From NCBI RefSeq assembly GCF_002077155.1, contig NZ_CP015027.1:496001-560000 (forward strand): 64,000 nt of DNA, in the 5' to 3' direction. Below the pieces are notes generated by a model. The model saw only the letters and a list, made by a program, of their open reading frames with translations. It ran no database searches and was not told where the DNA came from. Shown here in pieces: positions 1,936-55,271 of this stretch (its first letter is position 1; the number at the start of each line of letters is the position of its first letter). Origin of the DNA: Sporosarcina sp. P33 (GTDB lineage Bacteria > Bacillota > Bacilli > Bacillales_A > Planococcaceae). The translations under genes and the position numbers were made by a program.

Positions 1936-3516
1936 TTACTGATTTTGTTCTTTTTTACGCAATTCAACACGCATAATCTTTCCGGAAGAAGTCTTCGGCA
2001 ACTCTTGTAAAAACTCAATCTTCCGCGGATATTTATAAGGTGCCGTCAATTGTTTGACGTGATCCTGCAAGTCTTTCACCATTTTTTCAGTAGAGTCTGC
2101 CGCCTCGTCACGCAATACAACAAACGCTTTCACAACATTTCCGCGTTCTGGATCAGGACTCGCCACAACCGCACATTCACGGACTGCCGGATGTTTGATC
2201 AGCGCATCTTCCACTTCGAAAGGCCCAATTGTGTAACCCGAGCTGATGATGATATCATCGCCTCGTCCTTCAAACCAAAAATAGCCTTCCGCATCTTTTT
2301 TCGCACGGTCGCCTGTAATATAATAATCGCCTCTAAATTGCATCTTCGTCCGTTCAGAGTCATTTAAGTACTCTTTAAAAAGTGCCGGTGTTGATTTGTG
2401 GACTGCAATATCGCCTACTTCATCAACCCCCGCTACTGTTCCTTCATCGGTAATCACTTCCACAATATTGCCGGGCGTCGGCTTCCCCATAGAGCCTGGA
2501 CGCGGTGTCATTCCAATCATCGTGCCGACCAGCAGGGTATTTTCTGTCTGTCCGTAGCCGTCGCGCACAGTGAGTGAAAACTGTTTCTCGAAAATATCAA
2601 TGACTTCCCGGTTTAACGGTTCGCCGGCAGATACTGCACTTTTAACAGAAGCCAGTGAGAAGTTATTCAAGTTTTCCGCTTTGGCCATAAAACGATATTC
2701 AGTCGGAGTACAGCATAGAACGTTGATTTGATATTCATCCAAGAAGTGTAAGTATTTATCTACATCAAACTTGCCGCTGTAGACAAATCCTGTCGCGCCG
2801 CTTCCGAGAACGGATAAAAACGGTGACCAAATCCATTTTTGCCAGCCGGGAGCTGCTGTAGCCCAGACAATGTCACGTTCCGCAATGCCCAGCCAGTTCG
2901 GCGCAGCGGTACGTAAGTGTGCGTATCCCCATCCATGTGTATGCACAACACCTTTTGGTTTGCCTGTTGTACCCGACGTATACGATAAAAACGCAGTATC
3001 GTCACTGGCAGTATCACGGGCCGCAAATTCAGAAGGCGCGTTTTTTTCTTGTTCTGTCAAAGAAATTTCGCCTTCTTTTGCCTCACCGATAATATAGATA
3101 TTCACTTTATCTATATTGTCTACGTGTTCCAGCTGATCGGTGAATGCATCGTATGCAATAATTGCTTTTGCATTACTATGCTCGATTCGGTATTCAATAT
3201 CGGAGGAACGCAGCATTTCTGAACTAGGGATTACAACAAGTCCTGCTTTTAGCGCGCCGATATATGTAACATATGCTTCAATCATGCGCGGTACCATCAC
3301 TAATACTACATCACCTTGTTTCAGGCCGTTCTCTGTCAGCACGTTGGCTGTTCGGTTCGCCGCCCGGATGAGTTCATCGTATGTTACCTCTTGTTTTTGA
3401 TTTTGCTCATTTACATAAATTATTGCTTGTCTGCCATCACCCGTAGCATATTTTTCGAACTCCGAAACAATATTATAGCGAGCCGGCGCAAGCAGGTCTT
3501 CACGGTTCATATTCAT
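1936..3516 (-). CDS. ytcI: Acyl-CoA synthetase (AMP-forming), YtcI-like
   Basis: Adenylate-forming ligase that activates a carboxylate (acetate or a medium-chain fatty acid; the substrate cannot be read from sequence) to its CoA thioester through an acyl-AMP. Residues about 180-191 carry the P-loop TSGTTGKPKG, followed by YGQTE, the TGD motif and the hinge region RGDDIIISSGY; PKTSSGKIMR near the C-terminus holds the catalytic lysine that is the target of Acu-type acetylation in relatives. Length 526 fits the family. The ATG at 3516 follows a GGGGG ribosome site. Position beside nadK and sppA matches B. subtilis ytcI. A good sigma-A promoter lies just upstream. Confidence 0.85.
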   Translation of the reverse strand: MNMNREDLLAPARYNIVSEFEKYATGDGRQAIIYVNEQNQKQEVTYDELIRAANRTANVLTENGLKQGDVVLVMVPRMIEAYVTYIGALKAGLVVIPSSEMLRSSDIEYRIEHSNAKAIIAYDAFTDQLEHVDNIDKVNIYIIGEAKEGEISLTEQEKNAPSEFAARDTASDDTAFLSYTSGTTGKPKGVVHTHGWGYAHLRTAAPNWLGIAERDIVWATAAPGWQKWIWSPFLSVLGSGATGFVYSGKFDVDKYLHFLDEYQINVLCCTPTEYRFMAKAENLNNFSLASVKSAVSAGEPLNREVIDIFEKQFSLTVRDGYGQTENTLLVGTMIGMTPRPGSMGKPTPGNIVEVITDEGTVAGVDEVGDIAVHKSTPALFKEYLNDSERTKMQFRGDYYITGDRAKKDAEGYFWFEGRGDDIIISSGYTIGPFEVEDALIKHPAVRECAVVASPDPERGNVVKAFVVLRDEAADSTEKMVKDLQDHVKQLTAPYKYPRKIEFLQELPKTSSGKIMRVELRKKEQNQ

Positions 3517-13565: not shown

Positions 13566-13846
13566 ATTGGGATTGATAACAGATCTGAAATTAACAATGG
13601 CGTTCTGCAGATGTTTATTCGGAACACTTATTCATCACTGGCGCGACTACAGGGTCGCAAGGACGCAAAAGTAGGCAGGGTTTGCGTTGCTTAAGGGAAA
13701 CAACCAGTAGAACAATGACCGCGGCAAATTAGGTCCAATCAGAATCTACATGCTATATAAATCAGCACATATAATTGTTGTCAAACGTAACATTTATTAT
13801 CCTATATAAAAAGCGGGCTCCCGAAATCCGGGACGCCCGCTTTTTT
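13566..13846 (+). ncRNA. Candidate free-standing structured RNA, about 280 nt
   Basis: The segment has its own consensus promoter and ends in a strong intrinsic terminator (13810-13846). Between them several helices can be drawn by eye: a closing stem 13563-13571 with 13734-13742; a bulged stem 13578-13587 with 13608-13615; ACTGG 13637-13641 with CCAGT 13704-13708, enclosing two hairpins, GCGAC 13643-13647 with GTCGC 13654-13658 and ACGCAAA 13663-13669 with TTTGCGT 13681-13687. There is no coding frame and the next gene on the strand is 1.5 kb away beyond an opposing gene, so it is unlikely to be a cis-riboswitch. I do not recognise the family. The word GGACGCAAA recalls the c-di-GMP-I riboswitch, but the rest of that motif is missing. 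Confidence 0.6.
13810..13846. terminator. Terminator shared by the RNA candidate and the methionine gamma-lyase gene
   Basis: AGCGGGC and CCCG arms pair with CGGG and GCCCGCT; six T's follow on the plus strand and five A's precede it. It ends five bases before the methionine gamma-lyase stop codon on the opposite strand. Confidence 0.85.
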
Positions 13847-19898: not shown

Positions 19899-20040
19899 TA
19901 TGATCGCATGTCACCTGTCTATGAGCGGTGATCAGGCAGCATAGAGCGCTTGCGAAAATTTATGAGCGGACACCGCACGACTATGAGCGCCTGCCGCGAT
20001 TATTAATCGCTTCCCGGGTTTCATTGATCGCGGATGCCCG
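19899..20040. repeat. Array C: seven degenerate repeats of 20-21 bp
   Basis: Core words TATGATCGC, TATGAGCGG, ATAGAGCGC, TATGAGCGG, TATGAGCGC, TTAATCGC and TTGATCGC recur with spacings 21, 21, 20, 21, 20 and 21 bases. The array lies between the terminator of the interrupted gene and the 3' end of tyrS. Stops occur in the frame, so it is not coding. It is the most degenerate of three such arrays in the window. Confidence 0.75.
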
Positions 20041-20056
20041 GAAAAATCATTGTCCA

Positions 20057-24682: not shown

Positions 24683-24734
24683 TGCCTATGCAAGGCGGAT
24701 GTGCGACTGTTTTATATGTTGCAGCCGAACATAT

Positions 24735-25072
24735 CCGATGTCCAGCCGCTCAATCTGCATCCGCAACCGATCATACTCAACGCCCTACCGCTCTATATCA
24801 ACCCGCAACCGATCAAACCCTACGCCCTACCGCTCTATATCAACCCGCAACCGATCAAACCCTACGCCCCACCGCTCTATATCAACCCGCGACCGATCAT
24901 ACTCAACGCCCAACCGCTCTATACCCTCCCGCAACTGATCATACTCAACGCCCCCCGCTCTATACCCTCCCGCAACCGATCATACCCTACGCTCCACCGC
25001 TCTATATCAACCCGCAACCGATTAAACCCAACGCCTCACCGCTCTATATCCCTCCACAACCGATCAAACCCA
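24735..25072. repeat. Array B: sixteen repeats with 21-bp period and 42-bp super-period
   Basis: On the plus strand CCGCTC and CCGATC cores alternate at 24746, 24767, 24788, 24809, 24830, 24851, 24872, 24893, 24914, 24935, 24955, 24976, 24997, 25018, 25039 and 25060. Every step is 21 bases except one of 20. Read on the minus strand the units are TATAGAGCGG and TTTGATCGG types, homologous to the other arrays. The array fills most of the 625-base gap between the PBP terminator and acuA. Minus-strand frames contain stops in each unit; plus-strand frames stay open only because the period is divisible by three. Confidence 0.85.
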
Positions 25073-42727: not shown

Positions 42728-44270
42728 CGGCATTGAACTCACTGCGGCGCTTGCGGATGGCTACGCAATGAGCCGGACAGGAAGATCGCCTGGCTGTCTC
42801 ATCACTTCGCCCACCGCTTGGAAGGCGCCTTCGTTCAGTAAGCGGAAATCACTTTGGCTACTGATTTTTGAAAAGTGACGGGCAAGTGCTGTGCAGACGG
42901 ATTTTGCTCTTTAGCATCACGACTGCATTACATAGTCTGACGCCTTTGTGAAAAGAGACGCGAAACGGCTTTGAACCCACTGCGGCGCTTGCGGATGGCT
43001 ACGCGATGAGCCAGACAGGAAGAGCACCTGGCTGTCTCATCACTTCGCCTACCGCTTGTAAGGCGCCTCCGTTTAGTTAGGGAAAAGCGAAAAATGACAC
43101 TTCTCTTGCCAAAGCACACGCCAATCGACAACCAGTCACTGCACTTCTTCTCTTTTAAAAGAGTACTGGGATTGCTCCCACTCTGCAGCGCAGGCACAAC
43201 TGCGGGGTCGGCCGAAGTCATGAGACAACTGGCACGGACTTCGCCAGCTGGCTCATGACGTAAGGCAATCCCCCACGTGCCGGCGCGGGTCCAAAGAGCT
43301 GGCACTTGCTAACTCTAATCCCCAACACCTAGTCGAGCAACGCCGCAAAACCAGAGCCAGAACGGCATTAAACTCACTGCGGTGCTTGCGGATGGCTACG
43401 CAATGAGCCAGACAGGAAGATCGCCTGGCTGTCTCATCACTTCGCCGACCGCTTGGAAGGCGCCTCCGTTCAGTTAGGGGAAAGCAAAAAATGACACGTC
43501 TTTTGCTAAGGCATACCCCAGTCGGCAACGTGTCACTGAACTTCTTCTCCTATAAACCACAACCTGGATTGCCTCCACTAAGCAGCGCAGGCACAACTGC
43601 GAGGTCGGCCGAAGTCATGAGACAACTGGCACGCACTTCGCCAGCTGGCTCATGACGAAAGGCAATCCCCCACGTGCCGGCGCGGGTCCTAAAAGCTGAC
43701 CCTCTCCCACTTCAAACTCCAACAACCAGTCGAGCAACGTCCCATCACCAATGCCAGAACGGCATTGAACTCACTGCGGTGCTTGCGGATGGCTACGCAA
43801 TGAGCCAGACAGGAAGATCGCCTGGCTGTCTCATCACTTCGCCGACCGCTTGGAAGGCGCCTCCGTTCAGTTAGGGGATAGCAAAAAATGACACGTCTTT
43901 TGCTAAGGCATACCCCAGTCGGCAACGTGTCACTGAACTTCTTCTCCTATAAAACACAACCCGGATTGCTTCCACTCAGCAGCGCAGGCACAACTGCGGG
44001 GTCGGCCGAAGTCATGAGACAACTGGCGCGCCCTTCGCCAGCTGGCTCATGACGAAAGGCAATCCCCCACGTGCCGGCGCGGGTCCTAAAAGCTGACCCT
44101 CTCCCACTTCAAACTCCAACAACCAGTCGAGCCACGTCCCATCACCAAAGCCTGAACGGCATTGTACTCACTGCGGCACAGTTCCTAACAATGGTCACTC
44201 ACTAACTCTAATCCCCAACACCAGCCGCCCCGAAAGCGCATTCATTTAGTCAGCGGATAAAGCGCTGTAC
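42728..44270. repeat. Tandem 397-bp repeats filling a gene-free 1.6 kb
   Basis: The word CGGCATTGAACTCACTGCGG, or a one- to three-base variant, starts units at 42728, 42966, 43363, 43760 and 44157. The last three intervals are exactly 397 bases; the first is a shortened, diverged unit and the last is broken off. Each full unit holds an imperfect 14-bp palindrome (ATGAGCCAGACAGG / CCTGGCTGTCTCAT) and a 17-bp-armed hairpin (for example 43614-43656). Open frames of 60-125 codons cross the repeats on both strands, but they follow the palindromes and lack ribosome sites. No gene is supported between 42593 and 44277. Confidence 0.88.
43614..43656. repeat. Long hairpin inside the 397-bp repeat
   Basis: GTCATGAG.CA.CTGGC against its complement, 15 of 17 pairs, around a nine-base loop. 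Equivalent hairpins occur in the neighbouring units near 43217 and 44011. Confidence 0.8.
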
Positions 44271-50750: not shown

Positions 50751-50901
50751 AATTGATTCCTTCCATTCCTAAAGAGATACTTGTATAGTTTACCCCTCGG
50801 CACGCTTTTGCACAATCTTTAACTGAATTCTAAATCAAAAAGCAACCCGGCGTATATGGTGTATAATGATAGACAAAATGAGAAGAAAGCGTGGTTCTAC
50901 A

Positions 50902-52158
50902 ATGTATGATGTAATCGTAATCGGCGGCGGACCTTCAGGCTTAATGGCCTCCATTGCGGCAGCCGAACAAAAAAAGCGTGTCTTGCTGCTGGAAAAAGGC
51001 CGAAAGCTCGGCAATAAATTAGCTATCTCTGGCGGCGGCCGGTGTAACGTCACAAATCGGCTGTCCCAAGAAGAAATCATTAAACATATTCCAGGCAACG
51101 GAAAATTCCTGTTCGGTCCGTTCTCTGTTTTCAACAATCAGGATATCATCCAGTACTTCGAAGGACTCGGCGTCCCATTAAAAGAGGAAGATCACGGCCG
51201 AATGTTTCCTGTTTCCAATAAATCCAAAGACGTTGTCAATGCCCTCTTGAATCAACTGGATGAACTCGGTGTGGAAATCCGTTTGGAAAGCCGTGTACAA
51301 AAACTGCTGATGGACGATGAAAAAATTCTGGGTGTCCGGCTGGATGACGGTGAAGAACTGCGTGCACATGCAGTAGTCGTGGCGGTCGGCGGCAAGGCAG
51401 TTCCCCAAACGGGCAGCACAGGCGACGGCTACCCGTGGGCGGAACGTGCAGGACATACCGTCACACCGCTGTATCCGACGGAAGTTCCTTTGCTGTCAAA
51501 AGAACCTTTCATTGCTTCGAAGGAACTGCAGGGTCTCGCACTGCGCGATGTGAAAGTATCCGTTTTGAACAAGAAAGGGAAAACACTCGTCACACATCAG
51601 ATGGATATGCTGTTTACCCACTTTGGTGTAAGCGGCCCTGCGATATTGCGGTGCAGCCAATTCGTCGTCAAAGAACAGATGAAAAACGGCAGACAGCCCG
51701 TCTTACTGCAAATTGATTCCATGCCTGATCAGCATGAAGAGCAAGTCACGCAAATGATCACTAAGATTTTAAAAGAGGAGTCCAAAAAACAAGTAAAGAC
51801 GTCATTGAAAGGACTCGTTCCGGAACGGTGGCTGCTGTTTCTGCTAAAGCAAGCCGGAATCGATGAAACGGCAATCGGAGCAGACATCAGGCGAGATTCC
51901 ATTCGGACGCTCGCAAGCCTGTTTAAAACTTTTCCTGTCTATATTACCGGGACGCAGCCAATCGAGAAAGCATTCGTCACAGGCGGCGGTGTGTCTGTGA
52001 AAGAAGTCGAACCGAAAACAATGGCTTCACGGAAGAAGTCCGGACTGTTTTTCTGCGGCGAGATTTTGGATATCCACGGCTACACGGGCGGCTATAATAT
52101 TACTGCCGCACTTGTCACGGGACGTCTTGCAGGAATGAATGCAGGGTTGATGAATTGA
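50902..52158 (+). CDS. ytfP: HI0933-family flavoprotein YtfP
   Basis: FAD-dependent oxidoreductase of unknown substrate. 418 residues. The dinucleotide-binding motif [12 protein letters not shown] begins at residue 5, [11 protein letters not shown] near 47 is the family signature, and the C-terminal [22 protein letters not shown] (part) closes the FAD site. The start is placed at ATG 50902; the ribosome site is weak, and an ATG at 50866 is possible but would add a basic tail not seen in the family. Its stop is in the same frame as the 21-bp repeats that follow. Confidence 0.88.
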
Positions 52159-52165
52159 GTTATTA

Positions 52166-52475
52166 GGTATGAGCGCTTGACGGGACGGTATGAGCGCTTG
52201 GCCATCAGGTATGAGCGCTCGACAGGCTGGTATGATCACCTGGCCATCGGGTATGAGCGCTTGACAGGCTGGTATGATCACTTGGCCGTCGGCTATGAGC
52301 GCTTGACGGGACGGTATGATCACTTGGCCATCGGGTATGAGCGCTTGACAGGCTGGTATGATCACTTGGCCGTCGGCTATGAGCGCTTGACGGGACGGTA
52401 TGATCACCTGGCCAACAGGTATGAGCGCTTGACCAACAAGTATGATCACTTGCAGGAATTATTGAGCGCCTACCC
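52166..52475. repeat. Array A: fifteen repeats with 21-bp period and 42-bp super-period
   Basis: Units start TATGA at 52168 and then every 21 bases to 52441, with a damaged fifteenth at about 52461. From the third unit on, the cores alternate strictly: TATGAGCGCTTGAC then TATGATCACTTGGC. The other half of each unit also alternates (GGGACGG or AGGCTGG after the first type, CATCGGG or CGTCGGC after the second), so the true unit is 42 bases. The array lies between ytfP and the leuS terminator, two convergent genes. Confidence 0.88.
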
Positions 52476-52506
52476 TCTCGAATGATGTTCCTGCGCTTCA
52501 CACACA

Positions 52507-52537
52507 AAAAAGCCGGCCGAAGGATTTTGTCTTCGAC
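52507..52537 (-). terminator. leuS terminator
   Basis: AAGCCGGCCGAAGG and TTCGACCGGC arms with one mismatch, T-run on the minus strand, 18 bases after the leuS stop. Confidence 0.8.
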
Positions 52538-52554
52538 CGGCATTCGTTATGTTA

Positions 52555-54969
52555 TTAACCAGCTACAATATTTACCAGGCGTCCAGGAATCGCTATGATT
52601 TTCTTCAATTCCTTGCCTTCCATCCACTGTTTCACATCTTCATTTTCCAGAGCCGCCTGTTCCAGCTCTTCTTTCGCAGAATCTTTTGGTACAGTAATTT
52701 TTGCACGGATTTTTCCGTTGATTTGCACTGCAACTTCTACCGTATCATCCGACAGCTTCGATTCATCAAATGTCGGCCACTGTGCATACGCGATCGATTC
52801 TGTATGTCCGAGTTTGGACCACAGTTCTTCTGCCAAGTGCGGCGTGACCGGTGAAATTAATAAAATGAATCCTTCGATATACGCTTTCGGCAATTTCTCT
52901 GCTTTATAGCATTCATTGATGAATACCATCAGTTGAGAGATGGCGGTATTATTGCGCATGCTCTCGAAATCTTCCGTAACTTTTTTAACAGTCTGGTTAT
53001 ACACTTTCTCAAGCGGTCCGCCAGTTTCATCAGTCAATTTGCCGGTCAGTGTGTCATCCTCATTGACGAGCAAACGCCAAATGCGGTCAAGGAAACGGCG
53101 TGACCCGTCCAGCCCGTTCGTTGACCATTCTTTCGATGCATCAAGCGGACCCATGAACATTTCATAAATACGCAATGTATCTGCACCGTGTGAATGAACG
53201 ATATCATCCGGGTTGATGACATTTCCGAGTGATTTGGACATTTTCACATGACCTTCACCTAAGATCATTCCCTGATTGAAGAGCTTCTGGAACGGCTCTT
53301 TCGTTTGAACGACACCAATGTCATACAATACTTTGTGCCAGAAACGCGCATACAATAAGTGAAGTACCGCATGCTCTGCACCGCCTACGTAAATATCTAC
53401 CGGCAGCCAGCGCTCGGCCAATTTCGGGTCAATGATCATTTCATCATTTTTCGGGTCGATATAACGCAGATAATACCAGCAGCTTCCCGCCCATTGCGGC
53501 ATCGTATTCGTTTCACGGCGTCCTTTCATTCCCGTTTCAGGATCGACAACATTCACCCACTCTGTAATATTCGCAAGCGGTGATTCACCCGTGCCGCTCG
53601 GCTTAATATTATCCGTTACCGGCAGCATCAACGGCAATTCAGATTCGTCGACAGTTGTCATTGTGCCGTCTTCCCAGTGAATTACAGGAATCGGCTCGCC
53701 CCAGTATCTCTGACGGGAGAATAACCAGTCACGCAAACGATACGTGATTTTGCGTTCGCCTGTGCCTTTTTCTTCAAACCATTCGATCGCTTTTGTGATC
53801 GCTTCTTCTTTGCCTAATCCATTCAGGAAGTCCGAATTCACATGCTCCCCTTCCCCTGCATAGGCTTCCTCTTCAATATTCCCGCCTGCTACGACTTCGA
53901 TAATCGGCAGATCAAATGTTTTTGCAAATTCATAGTCCCGTTCATCATGTGCCGGAACCGCCATGATGGCACCTGTTCCATATGTTGCCAAAACATAATC
54001 CGCAATCCAGATCGGCATTTTCTCTCCGCTTGCCGGGTTAATGGCATATGCACCAGTGAATACACCTGTTTTTTCTTTCGCTAAATCTGTACGCTCAAGA
54101 TCACTCTTTGATTTCACTGAGCTAATATAATTTTCAACCGCTTCACGCTGAGCATCCGTTGTAATTTCGCTAACCAATTTATGTTCAGGTGCCAATACCG
54201 CATACGTTGCACCGAAAATCGTGTCAGGACGTGTAGTGAATGCTTCGAATGAATGATCCGTATCCGCGATGTCAAATGTCAGTTGCGCACCTTCTGAACG
54301 GCCAATCCAATTTCGCTGCATATCTTTTAGGCTTTCTGGCCAGTCAAGGTCATCCAAGTCTTCCAGCAGACGGTCTGCATATTCCGTAATACGCAGCACC
54401 CACTGGCGCATCGGACGGCGTTCTACCGGGTGATTTCCGCGCTCGGACAATCCGTCGATTACTTCTTCATTCGCAAGCACTGTTCCGAGTGCCGGACACC
54501 AGTTAACAGGCACTTCATCAATATACGCAAGACCGCGCTTATACAATTGAATGAAAATCCACTGTGTCCACTTATAATAACTAGGGTCCGTCGTGTTGAT
54601 TTCCCGGTCCCAGTCGTAAGAAAATCCAAGGTCCTGCATTTGCCGCTTGAACGTTGCGATGTTTTTCGCTGTGAATTCAGCCGGGTCATTCCCTGTATCG
54701 ATCGCATACTGTTCCGCAGGCAATCCAAATGCATCCCATCCCATCGGGTGCAGCACGTTGTATCCTTGCTTGCGTTTGAACGCACTTAAAATATCTGTCG
54801 CGATATAGCCGAGCGGATGTCCTACGTGCAGACCTGCGCCGGAAGGATACGGGAACATATCCAATGCATAAAACTTCGGCTTCGATGGATCATCAACCAT
54901 TTTGTACGTGCCATGATCCTGCCAATATTGTTGCCATTTCTTTTCAATTTGCGTGTGCTTATAACTCAT
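52555..54969 (-). CDS. leuS: Leucyl-tRNA synthetase
   Basis: Class I synthetase, 804 residues, usual bacterial length. HIGH is HVGH in [13 protein letters not shown] near residue 47, the KMSKS loop is [10 protein letters not shown] near residue 577, and the editing domain insertion (about 225-420) includes [14 protein letters not shown] 54969 follows GGAG; the open frame further upstream lies in the T-box leader. Controlled by a leucine T-box, so it is induced when tRNA-Leu is uncharged. Confidence 0.98.
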
Positions 54970-55023
54970 TTGAAAAACTCCTCCATTGTCATGCGAATTC
55001 AGCTTCTTGTATTGGCGCATACA

Positions 55024-55271
55024 GATAAAAAAAGACTCCCGTCCCTGTGAAAAGGGACGAGAGTCTGTATAGTTTCCCGCGGTACCACCCAAATTGACGG
55101 ACTGCGCCGTCCAACTTGATTCCTTAACGCGGAGTACGGTATCAGCTACAAGTATTCACCAATACAGGCTCAAAGGCGAGTTCGTTCGACGCTATTACAG
55201 ACTTGCACTGACCGTCTGCTCTCTAAAATGTAGCGGTAGAAGTACTATTCCTCATCAAAGCCTTCATTATT
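55024..55271 (-). promoter_or_regulatory. T-box leader of leuS
   Basis: Core GGGTGGTACCGCG on the minus strand (55078-55090), then a 12-bp terminator hairpin (55034-55045 with 55054-55065) and seven T's. The 5' part begins GATGAGGAATAGTAC-like sequence and has AGAGAGCAGACGG, both typical T-box features. CTC in GAACTCGCC is the likely specifier. Confidence 0.92.

Follow-up and report, generated by a model that had tools for sequence, protein, structure and literature searches.

Phased, one-stranded 21-bp repeat arrays between genes of Sporosarcina sp. P33 and of other Bacilli

Several described systems share features with the repeat array treated here, Array A of Sporosarcina sp. P33. Plasmid iterons and the RctB 12-mer arrays of Vibrio are direct, non-palindromic repeats in steps of about two turns on one DNA face, and the P33 arrays are likewise direct repeats on one strand with a step of about two turns. 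However, iterons and RctB 12-mers occupy a single origin beside their own initiator gene. The present arrays take up at least 35 chromosomal places at gene boundaries, and no origin with a cognate initiator gene lies alongside Array A, whose neighbours are leuS and a flavoprotein gene. The Sal-box/TTF-I, Fob1, Tus-Ter and RTP-Ter systems are polar sites with a fixed direction relative to the fork, those of the rDNA standing at the ends of rRNA genes. The arrays also hold one orientation relative to forks (58 of 66, with the terminus assumed to lie opposite dnaA), but they occupy far more loci and their words change between species.

Enterobacterial REP/BIME elements resemble the arrays in their many intergenic copies, often between convergent genes. 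REP units, however, are hairpin-forming palindromes without a 21-bp step on one strand. Inverted repeats were looked for in Array A and none were found, and fold z-scores of the arrays are scattered. CRISPR arrays likewise alternate a constant word with a variable linker. Their repeats are roughly 23–50 bp long, with unique spacers of similar length; the present arrays have 12-bp cores at a 21-bp step, at dozens of loci, and linkers of ~9 bp that recur within the array at even lags. The claim of the original prediction that there are no spacers was mistaken, as variable linkers separate the cores. Finally, an excerpt of PMC4679880 describes the TAACTGA repeats of Beggiatoaceae, in which two to six heptamers make up a set, usually placed immediately 5' of a start codon. 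As set out in that excerpt, they are similar to the arrays in forming many short intergenic sets of direct repeats whose role is not known; the arrays differ in their 21-bp steps, free linkers and mainly convergent or 3'-end gaps.

Our literature search covered open-access papers, with subscription papers largely outside it. No such arrays were described there, and papers containing a core word were unrelated by title. The prediction had known of no named element like Array A, and none was found in Rfam or in this literature. As far as found in the open-access literature, the array grammar, in which 42-bp modules at a 21-bp phase lie on one strand and point against the fork, is unnamed.

Array A and the other arrays of the genome

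The window analysed is the whole 64,000-bp stretch, in which positions are given. It contains three arrays of one dialect, and Array A lies in a convergent gap:

50866..52158, plus strand: left neighbour of Array A, an aminoacetone-oxidase-family FAD enzyme (TIGR00275), presumably ytfP
52168..52482, plus strand: Array A, 14 TATGAKCRC units at exact 21-bp steps and a degenerate 15th
52506..52541, minus strand: probable intrinsic terminator of leuS, a hairpin and T-run (-21.4 kcal/mol), 29 bp off the array end
52555..55092, minus strand: leuS, leucine--tRNA ligase (TIGR00396), start codon uncertain
24734..25068, minus strand: second array in the Array A dialect, 15 units by the broad core pattern (TRF, 42 bp x 7.5)
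19899..20043, plus strand: third, short array in the Array A dialect, in a convergent gap, 6 units by the broad core pattern

The units of Array A, read directly from the sequence, start at 52168 + 21k on the plus strand (k = 0–13, the last at 52441), as the prediction had stated. Its further statement that the cores alternate strictly from the third unit on is also correct: GAGCGC and GATCAC follow one another without exception, and unit 3 ends in CTCG, not CTTG. The degenerate 15th unit, ATTGAGCGCC, is in phase at ~52462. TRF scored a period of 84 bp (3.4 copies) above one of 42 bp (6.8 copies). Within the window, TATGAKCRC matched 17 times against 2.2 expected, a count attained in none of 100 shuffles. 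The proposed 42-bp super-repeat and 21-bp phase are real at Array A and recur in other arrays. The 6-bp palindromes of the cores are not a general feature, as the Lysinibacillus core TTATCAGCGATT holds neither.

The flavoprotein gene ends at 52158 (plus) and leuS at 52555 (minus). The convergent gap was read correctly for Array A, but it is one of several placements in general. The leuS terminator separates leuS from the array; on the side of the left gene, terminator detection gave none. The best four relatives of the left gene are all from Sporosarcina (91% identity). Array A, which is ~1.3 Mb from dnaA, had no match to phage and plasmid sequences. Rfam gave no gathering-score match over the arrays in the window or at loci L100, L012, L108 and L112; a sub-threshold match in the window (E 0.98) covers 52451–52545. 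Elsewhere in the window, Rfam matched a T-box leader upstream of leuS (55050–55267, minus strand) and the BsrC sRNA (13612–13700, minus strand), and a 397-bp tandem repeat of 3.1 copies with 91% matches lies at 42964–44176.

By targeted fetching and an even sample, at least 35 distinct arrays were placed in the P33 genome, and in the fetched clusters the general form of the unit is WWWGAKCGSnTG plus linker. Genes were called using a home-made codon-usage caller. The even sample comprised the window and 15 stretches of 20 kb (364 kb, 211 gaps), an array being three or more units. It contained 7 arrays: 3 in 35 convergent gaps, 4 in 144 tandem gaps and none in 32 divergent gaps. Scaled up, this amounts to ~60 arrays per genome. 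With regard to DNA uptake sequences, whose single copies are enriched throughout a genome and within genes as well, the density of the broad core pattern was 2.9 per kb in noncoding DNA and 0.83 per kb in coding DNA, the latter value having no shuffled control. The word TATGAKCRCYTG occurs in 163 copies in the P33 genome versus one match to the reversed pattern. The 16 congeners searched have 1 to 40 copies, and other family members have 0 to 8, near the reversed-pattern level.

Two of the other loci hold further structures. An IS3-like element, its two ORFs judged by eye, lies within one array at ~3796–5168 of L012. At 2650–3600 of L100, a ~388-bp cassette is present in two copies, each made of a conserved stretch that contains GGAGTGGAAGGCGGCGACTCAGGGAGGATCAGCC and, after it, a short array in the P33 dialect; the cassette had no Rfam match at gathering score.

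Dialects among relatives

The prediction had proposed a scan of related Planococcaceae, and arrays built alike from other core words are indeed present there. Its account of a chance minisatellite, for which the array would occur only here with its 21-base phase unconstrained, does not describe what was found. In the gap that corresponds to that of Array A, S. ureae has the words ATAGAGCGG/ATTGAGCGC at the same step, S. luteola S00266 has TTATCGATCAC, S. cyprini has TGGCGTTC at 20 bp, S. luteola MER 47 has TTTAGGCGC and S. aquimarina MER 20 has AACGAGCGGG. In Lysinibacillus the word there is TTATCAGCGATT, and in Planococcus it is TTTGCGGAAT or ACTATCCGGAA. The Psychrobacillus loci carry TTAGTTG[GT]AA arrays farther along the fetched stretch. 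Judged by eye, 7 of 22 loci have no array in this gap. Since arrays in the same gap are present or absent among close relatives, single arrays look dispensable.

Directly 3' of the left gene, TRF found a period of 20/21 or 40–42 bp in 28 of 80 loci, a count in which some loci have about two copies and some are cut by contig ends. Across the 159 kb of noncoding DNA in these 80 loci, recurrence of 8-mers peaked at lags of 21 (443), 42 (1387), 84 (1099) and 126 bp (890). Other lags were mostly far lower, with smaller peaks at, for example, 20, 40, 52, 102 and 104 bp. Near the same gap, two Ureibacillus loci and one Lysinibacillus locus (L051, L055, L077) carry noncoding repeats of 51/52 bp, five turns, and not 21 bp. 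Lysinibacillus FJAT-14745 has repeats of 35/37 bp around GTTGCTGACGCTTCGCTTTCGCACAG in more than one place (L181, L185).

The spread of the words was assessed by pattern searches. Pairs of TTATCAGCGATT numbered 71 in 4 of 15 named genomes, with no match to the reversed pattern, and were found in 9 of 151 family genomes and 2 of 19 genera. Triplets of TTATNRNCG occurred in 55 of 200 genomes and 8 of 17 genera. The reversed pattern matches too, mostly in one genus (g14), which therefore seems to carry a further word. Planococcus salinarum has several words together, including the GAGCG/GATCAC pair of the P33 genome. At ~3090–3400 of one of its loci (L133), an array was seen by eye upstream of an apparent purine riboswitch and terminator. 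Four RGCG at 21-bp steps matched 464 times in the P33 genome and 388 and 473 times in two congeners, compared to 42, 71 and 81 matches, respectively, for the reversed-pattern control; these two congeners have just 16 and 12 copies of the P33 word. In the class, 116 of 299 genomes, family members included, match the loose RGCG pattern, many of the matches listed being coding-like or GC-rich. Five genomes of other families supplied 15 fetched stretches, in which 10 intergenic arrays were confirmed in four genomes (G446, G393, G438 and G395), the majority having free linkers; by the patterns used, no array was found in the G314 stretch or in some others. Related genera thus share the array build with other core words, and similar arrays exist elsewhere in Bacilli.

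Core, linker and the 42-bp pair

Profiles of core and linker were derived from middle units chosen regardless of their own core (113 from P33, 61 from the Lysinibacillus set and 7 from Planococcus). Each 21-bp unit consists of a kept core of 8–12 bp (12 bp in P33) and a nearly free linker of ~9 bp. Adjacent linkers have an identity of 0.35, versus 0.36–0.37 for linkers of different loci, and second neighbours reach 0.59 and 0.69. Similarly, the share of near-identical linkers in the two large sets rises from 1% at lag 1 to 20% and 38% at lag 2. The commonest nearest copy of a linker is two units off at 12 of 18 P33 loci and 27 of 32 Lysinibacillus-set loci, and one unit off at none and 2, respectively. 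The linkers of S. ureae, MER 20 and S. cyprini recur at even lags as in the large sets, and those of G393 at lag 4. Contrary to these, the MER 47 linkers have an identity of 0.72 already at lag 1, its units being duplicated singly. The luteola, Planococcus, Psychrobacillus and G446 linker sets were too small or gave no clear difference between lags.

The cores have the same period. Among P33 units whose linkers are not copies, core subtypes agree at 0.67–0.71 at even lags versus 0.49–0.52 at odd lags, and by locus, even-lag agreement is the higher by 21 to 9 and 29 to 8. Based on the even-lag recurrence of linkers and the alternation of subtypes, the alternating cores of Array A are a case of a wider rule of 42-bp pairs. 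Judging from these lags, the repeat module of the large sets is a heritable pair of two units, 42 bp and four turns, with alternating core subtypes.

The step and strand of the cores are equally regular. Consecutive strict cores at most 32 bp apart are separated by 21 bp in 163 of 177 cases in P33 and 117 of 143 in Lysinibacillus, the rest being mostly 20 bp; one other step count was restricted to steps that differ by no more than 2 bp from a multiple of 21, a filter from which these counts are free. Core pairs within 110 bp lie on the same rather than opposite strands at 987:2 (P33), 515:0 and 24:0, with both opposite-strand arrangements included. The broader P33 core pattern gave 2849 same-strand versus 53 opposite-strand pairs.

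A kept core confined to one strand, its constant phase, linkers that vary freely and a step of two units together form the pattern expected of a head-to-tail binding array. We tentatively take the arrays to be a family of intergenic, helically phased, polar arrays of putative protein sites. A candidate DNA-binding protein would occupy the cores head to tail on one helix face, proceeding in steps of two non-equivalent half-sites (A/B). The dialects would reflect shifts in the specificity of this protein, or several proteins, as well as homogenisation of arrays within a genome; the number of dialects and the several words in P. salinarum are awkward for one protein.

The same data bear on a reading in which the arrays are neutral or selfish minisatellites that grow by slippage and gene conversion and have no cellular function, their polarity arising from a difference between leading- and lagging-strand slippage. 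Duplicated blocks of 42 bp, 84 bp and more are as it would have them, as are the gain and loss of arrays in one gap between relatives, the turnover of dialects, the homogenised rRNA-end arrays and the single-unit duplication in the MER 47 array. It does not explain why cores are kept, linkers are nearly free and the step is held, nor why phase is similar across different words. One-unit slippage should be easiest, yet lag-1 linker copies are 1% versus 20–38% at lag 2. The whole-unit homogenisation and common single-unit duplications of a plain minisatellite are not what the linkers show, the MER 47 array being an exception. We consider this neutral reading somewhat less likely than the site arrays.

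Two further readings concern the unit itself. In one, the arrays are DNA-wrapping sites or supercoil sinks, where gyrase or a nucleoid protein would bind flexible DNA in phase, in a role like that of E. coli REP/BIME. The 21-bp phase agrees with this, as does placement between convergent units and past rRNA operons. Within the unit, 10.5 bp is the largest of five harmonics of the A+T profile in 11 of 14 dialects, which also lends some support to the prediction that every core faces the same side of the helix. The permutation p is below 0.05 in just 5 of the 14, and is 0.115 in the P33 genome; the harmonic is weak in several dialects, P33 included. Wrapping, moreover, needs neither strict one-strand polarity nor an almost invariant core, and we regard a supercoil sink as improbable. 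In the other, the arrays encode a heptad repeat (YERLxxx/YDHLxxx), 21 bp being seven codons per unit, and one frame on each strand is indeed open throughout Array A. Other arrays have steps of 20, 41, 43, 62 and 83 bp, which disrupt the frame, four arrays sit past rRNA genes, and the GAG codon of the P33 unit profile varies to GAT but never to the synonymous GAA. A translated repeat is scarcely credible.

Structures acting in RNA were also considered. Fold z-scores of 12 arrays on both strands are scattered from -2.8 to +2.0, which set aside RNA structure, and the G/C skew of the core strand is inconsistent across dialects, which set aside Rho/rut; in the fold and skew data, rows L104 and L013 were folded in the antisense orientation.

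Orientation relative to replication

In P33, dnaA lies at 1.8557 Mb and all eight 5S genes point away from it. Called genes longer than 300 bp are co-directional with the fork in 348 cases and head-on in 96. The orientation of arrays was scored in P33 and in G139, G195 and G200, which share a genus label with a genome that agrees in its coordinates with a named Lysinibacillus, with dnaA located in each and the terminus taken as opposite. The arrays came from motif searches and sampled stretches, among the matches listed. In 58 of 66 arrays, the core strand opposes the fork (binomial p = 2e-10 with arrays treated as independent; the four rRNA-end arrays are not independent because they are homologous). 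The IS-split array at L012 counts twice in this number (36 P33 rows for 35 arrays), and the proportion is otherwise 57 of 65. By gap, the core strand is against the fork in 28 of 30 convergent, 5 of 6 divergent and 25 of 30 tandem arrays; the convergent class of L105 rests on a gene 794 bp off, and the rRNA strand was assigned manually at four loci. Of the 7 arrays in the evenly sampled stretches, 6 agree. The array at 24734..25068, in a tandem gap and antisense to both flanking genes, is one of the 8 arrays in which core strand and fork have the same direction.

The polarity against forks suggests a barrier. If the putative site arrays are bound as proposed, a polar filament would block or slow a machine entering in the core direction, which might be a replisome moving against normal replication or an RNA polymerase running antisense into the adjacent unit. 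Strand-biased slippage could also explain the polarity, as well as the duplications, and fork-polarised slippage is the main rival to the site-array reading. It does not account for kept cores, free linkers and rare one-unit copies, and we therefore place it below the site arrays. The four regularities, namely the step of kept core and free linker, the single strand, the even-lag pairs and the anti-fork strand, argue against a chance minisatellite.

Transcription offers another source of polarity. The arrays may be insulators, a roadblock or backup terminator past an intrinsic terminator that acts against antisense or read-through transcription, with fork polarity secondary to strong genes on the leading strand. 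In favour of this, 23 of the 30 tandem arrays run antisense to the genes (7 sense), arrays stand at rRNA operon ends, and in the even sample the placement was 3 of 35 for convergent gaps, 4 of 144 for tandem gaps and 0 of 32 for divergent gaps. In convergent gaps, however, gene direction is neutral and the fork is still followed in 28 of 30; a gene-orientation rule as the primary one was set back by this scoring. Divergent arrays exist and 5 of 6 follow the fork, and in the Lysinibacillus and Planococcus sets, too, arrays lie in divergent gaps, some of them near start codons. Six tandem arrays lie between head-on genes, four following the fork and two the genes, so the fork and gene rules are not cleanly separable. 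Replication is the likelier ruler of array polarity, over gene direction.

A terminator faces the array in 21 of 26 P33 arrays with a gene end there and in 11 of 19 in the other set, and control gene ends without an array have one in 63 of 103. The excess at arrays is at most weak, and the control set back terminator adjacency as a hallmark. We hold an insulator role to be unlikely. At the rRNA operons, all four that end directly after 5S continue with a terminator and then an array, its cores antisense to the rRNA; these arrays are homogenised. The other four 5S genes lead on to tRNA genes; at these ends, the fetched stretches revealed no array.

The core word itself raises the possibility of recombination hotspots built from Chi-like sites. 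AGCGG is the Chi of B. subtilis, a motif oriented with replication, and GAGCGG is found in many P33 units. Outside arrays, AGCGG favours the leading strand (542 to 367), and within them the opposite strand (61 to 8); other dialects lack it. This wrong polarity speaks against the Chi reading, which we give very little credence.

Extended to the chromosome, the site-array reading would make the arrays distributed polar nucleoprotein barriers of Bacilli: a candidate fast-evolving protein would read one-face 42-bp A/B steps at gene boundaries, where normal forks pass and wrong-way replisomes, or transcription, stop. Such a counterpart of rDNA fork barriers with species-specific words is a doubtful proposition at this stage. 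If the arrays are functional, a sequence-reading factor in Bacilli acts on chromosome replication or where transcription units end, and the many changes of its word are a natural experiment in DNA recognition. If they are not, they give a clear example of repeats whose growth is polarised by replication and which mimic binding sites. In either case, intergenic DNA of a common bacterial family is under a strict grammar, and both readings are directly testable.

Concerning the distribution of arrays along the P33 chromosome, no listed array lies between 142 and 516 kb, which is approximately the gap expected for 35 randomly spaced arrays, and depletion at the terminus was discarded. The P33 motif counts by strand are 53 and 110, with 4 and 52 strict adjacent pairs, hinting at more arrays on one replication arm.
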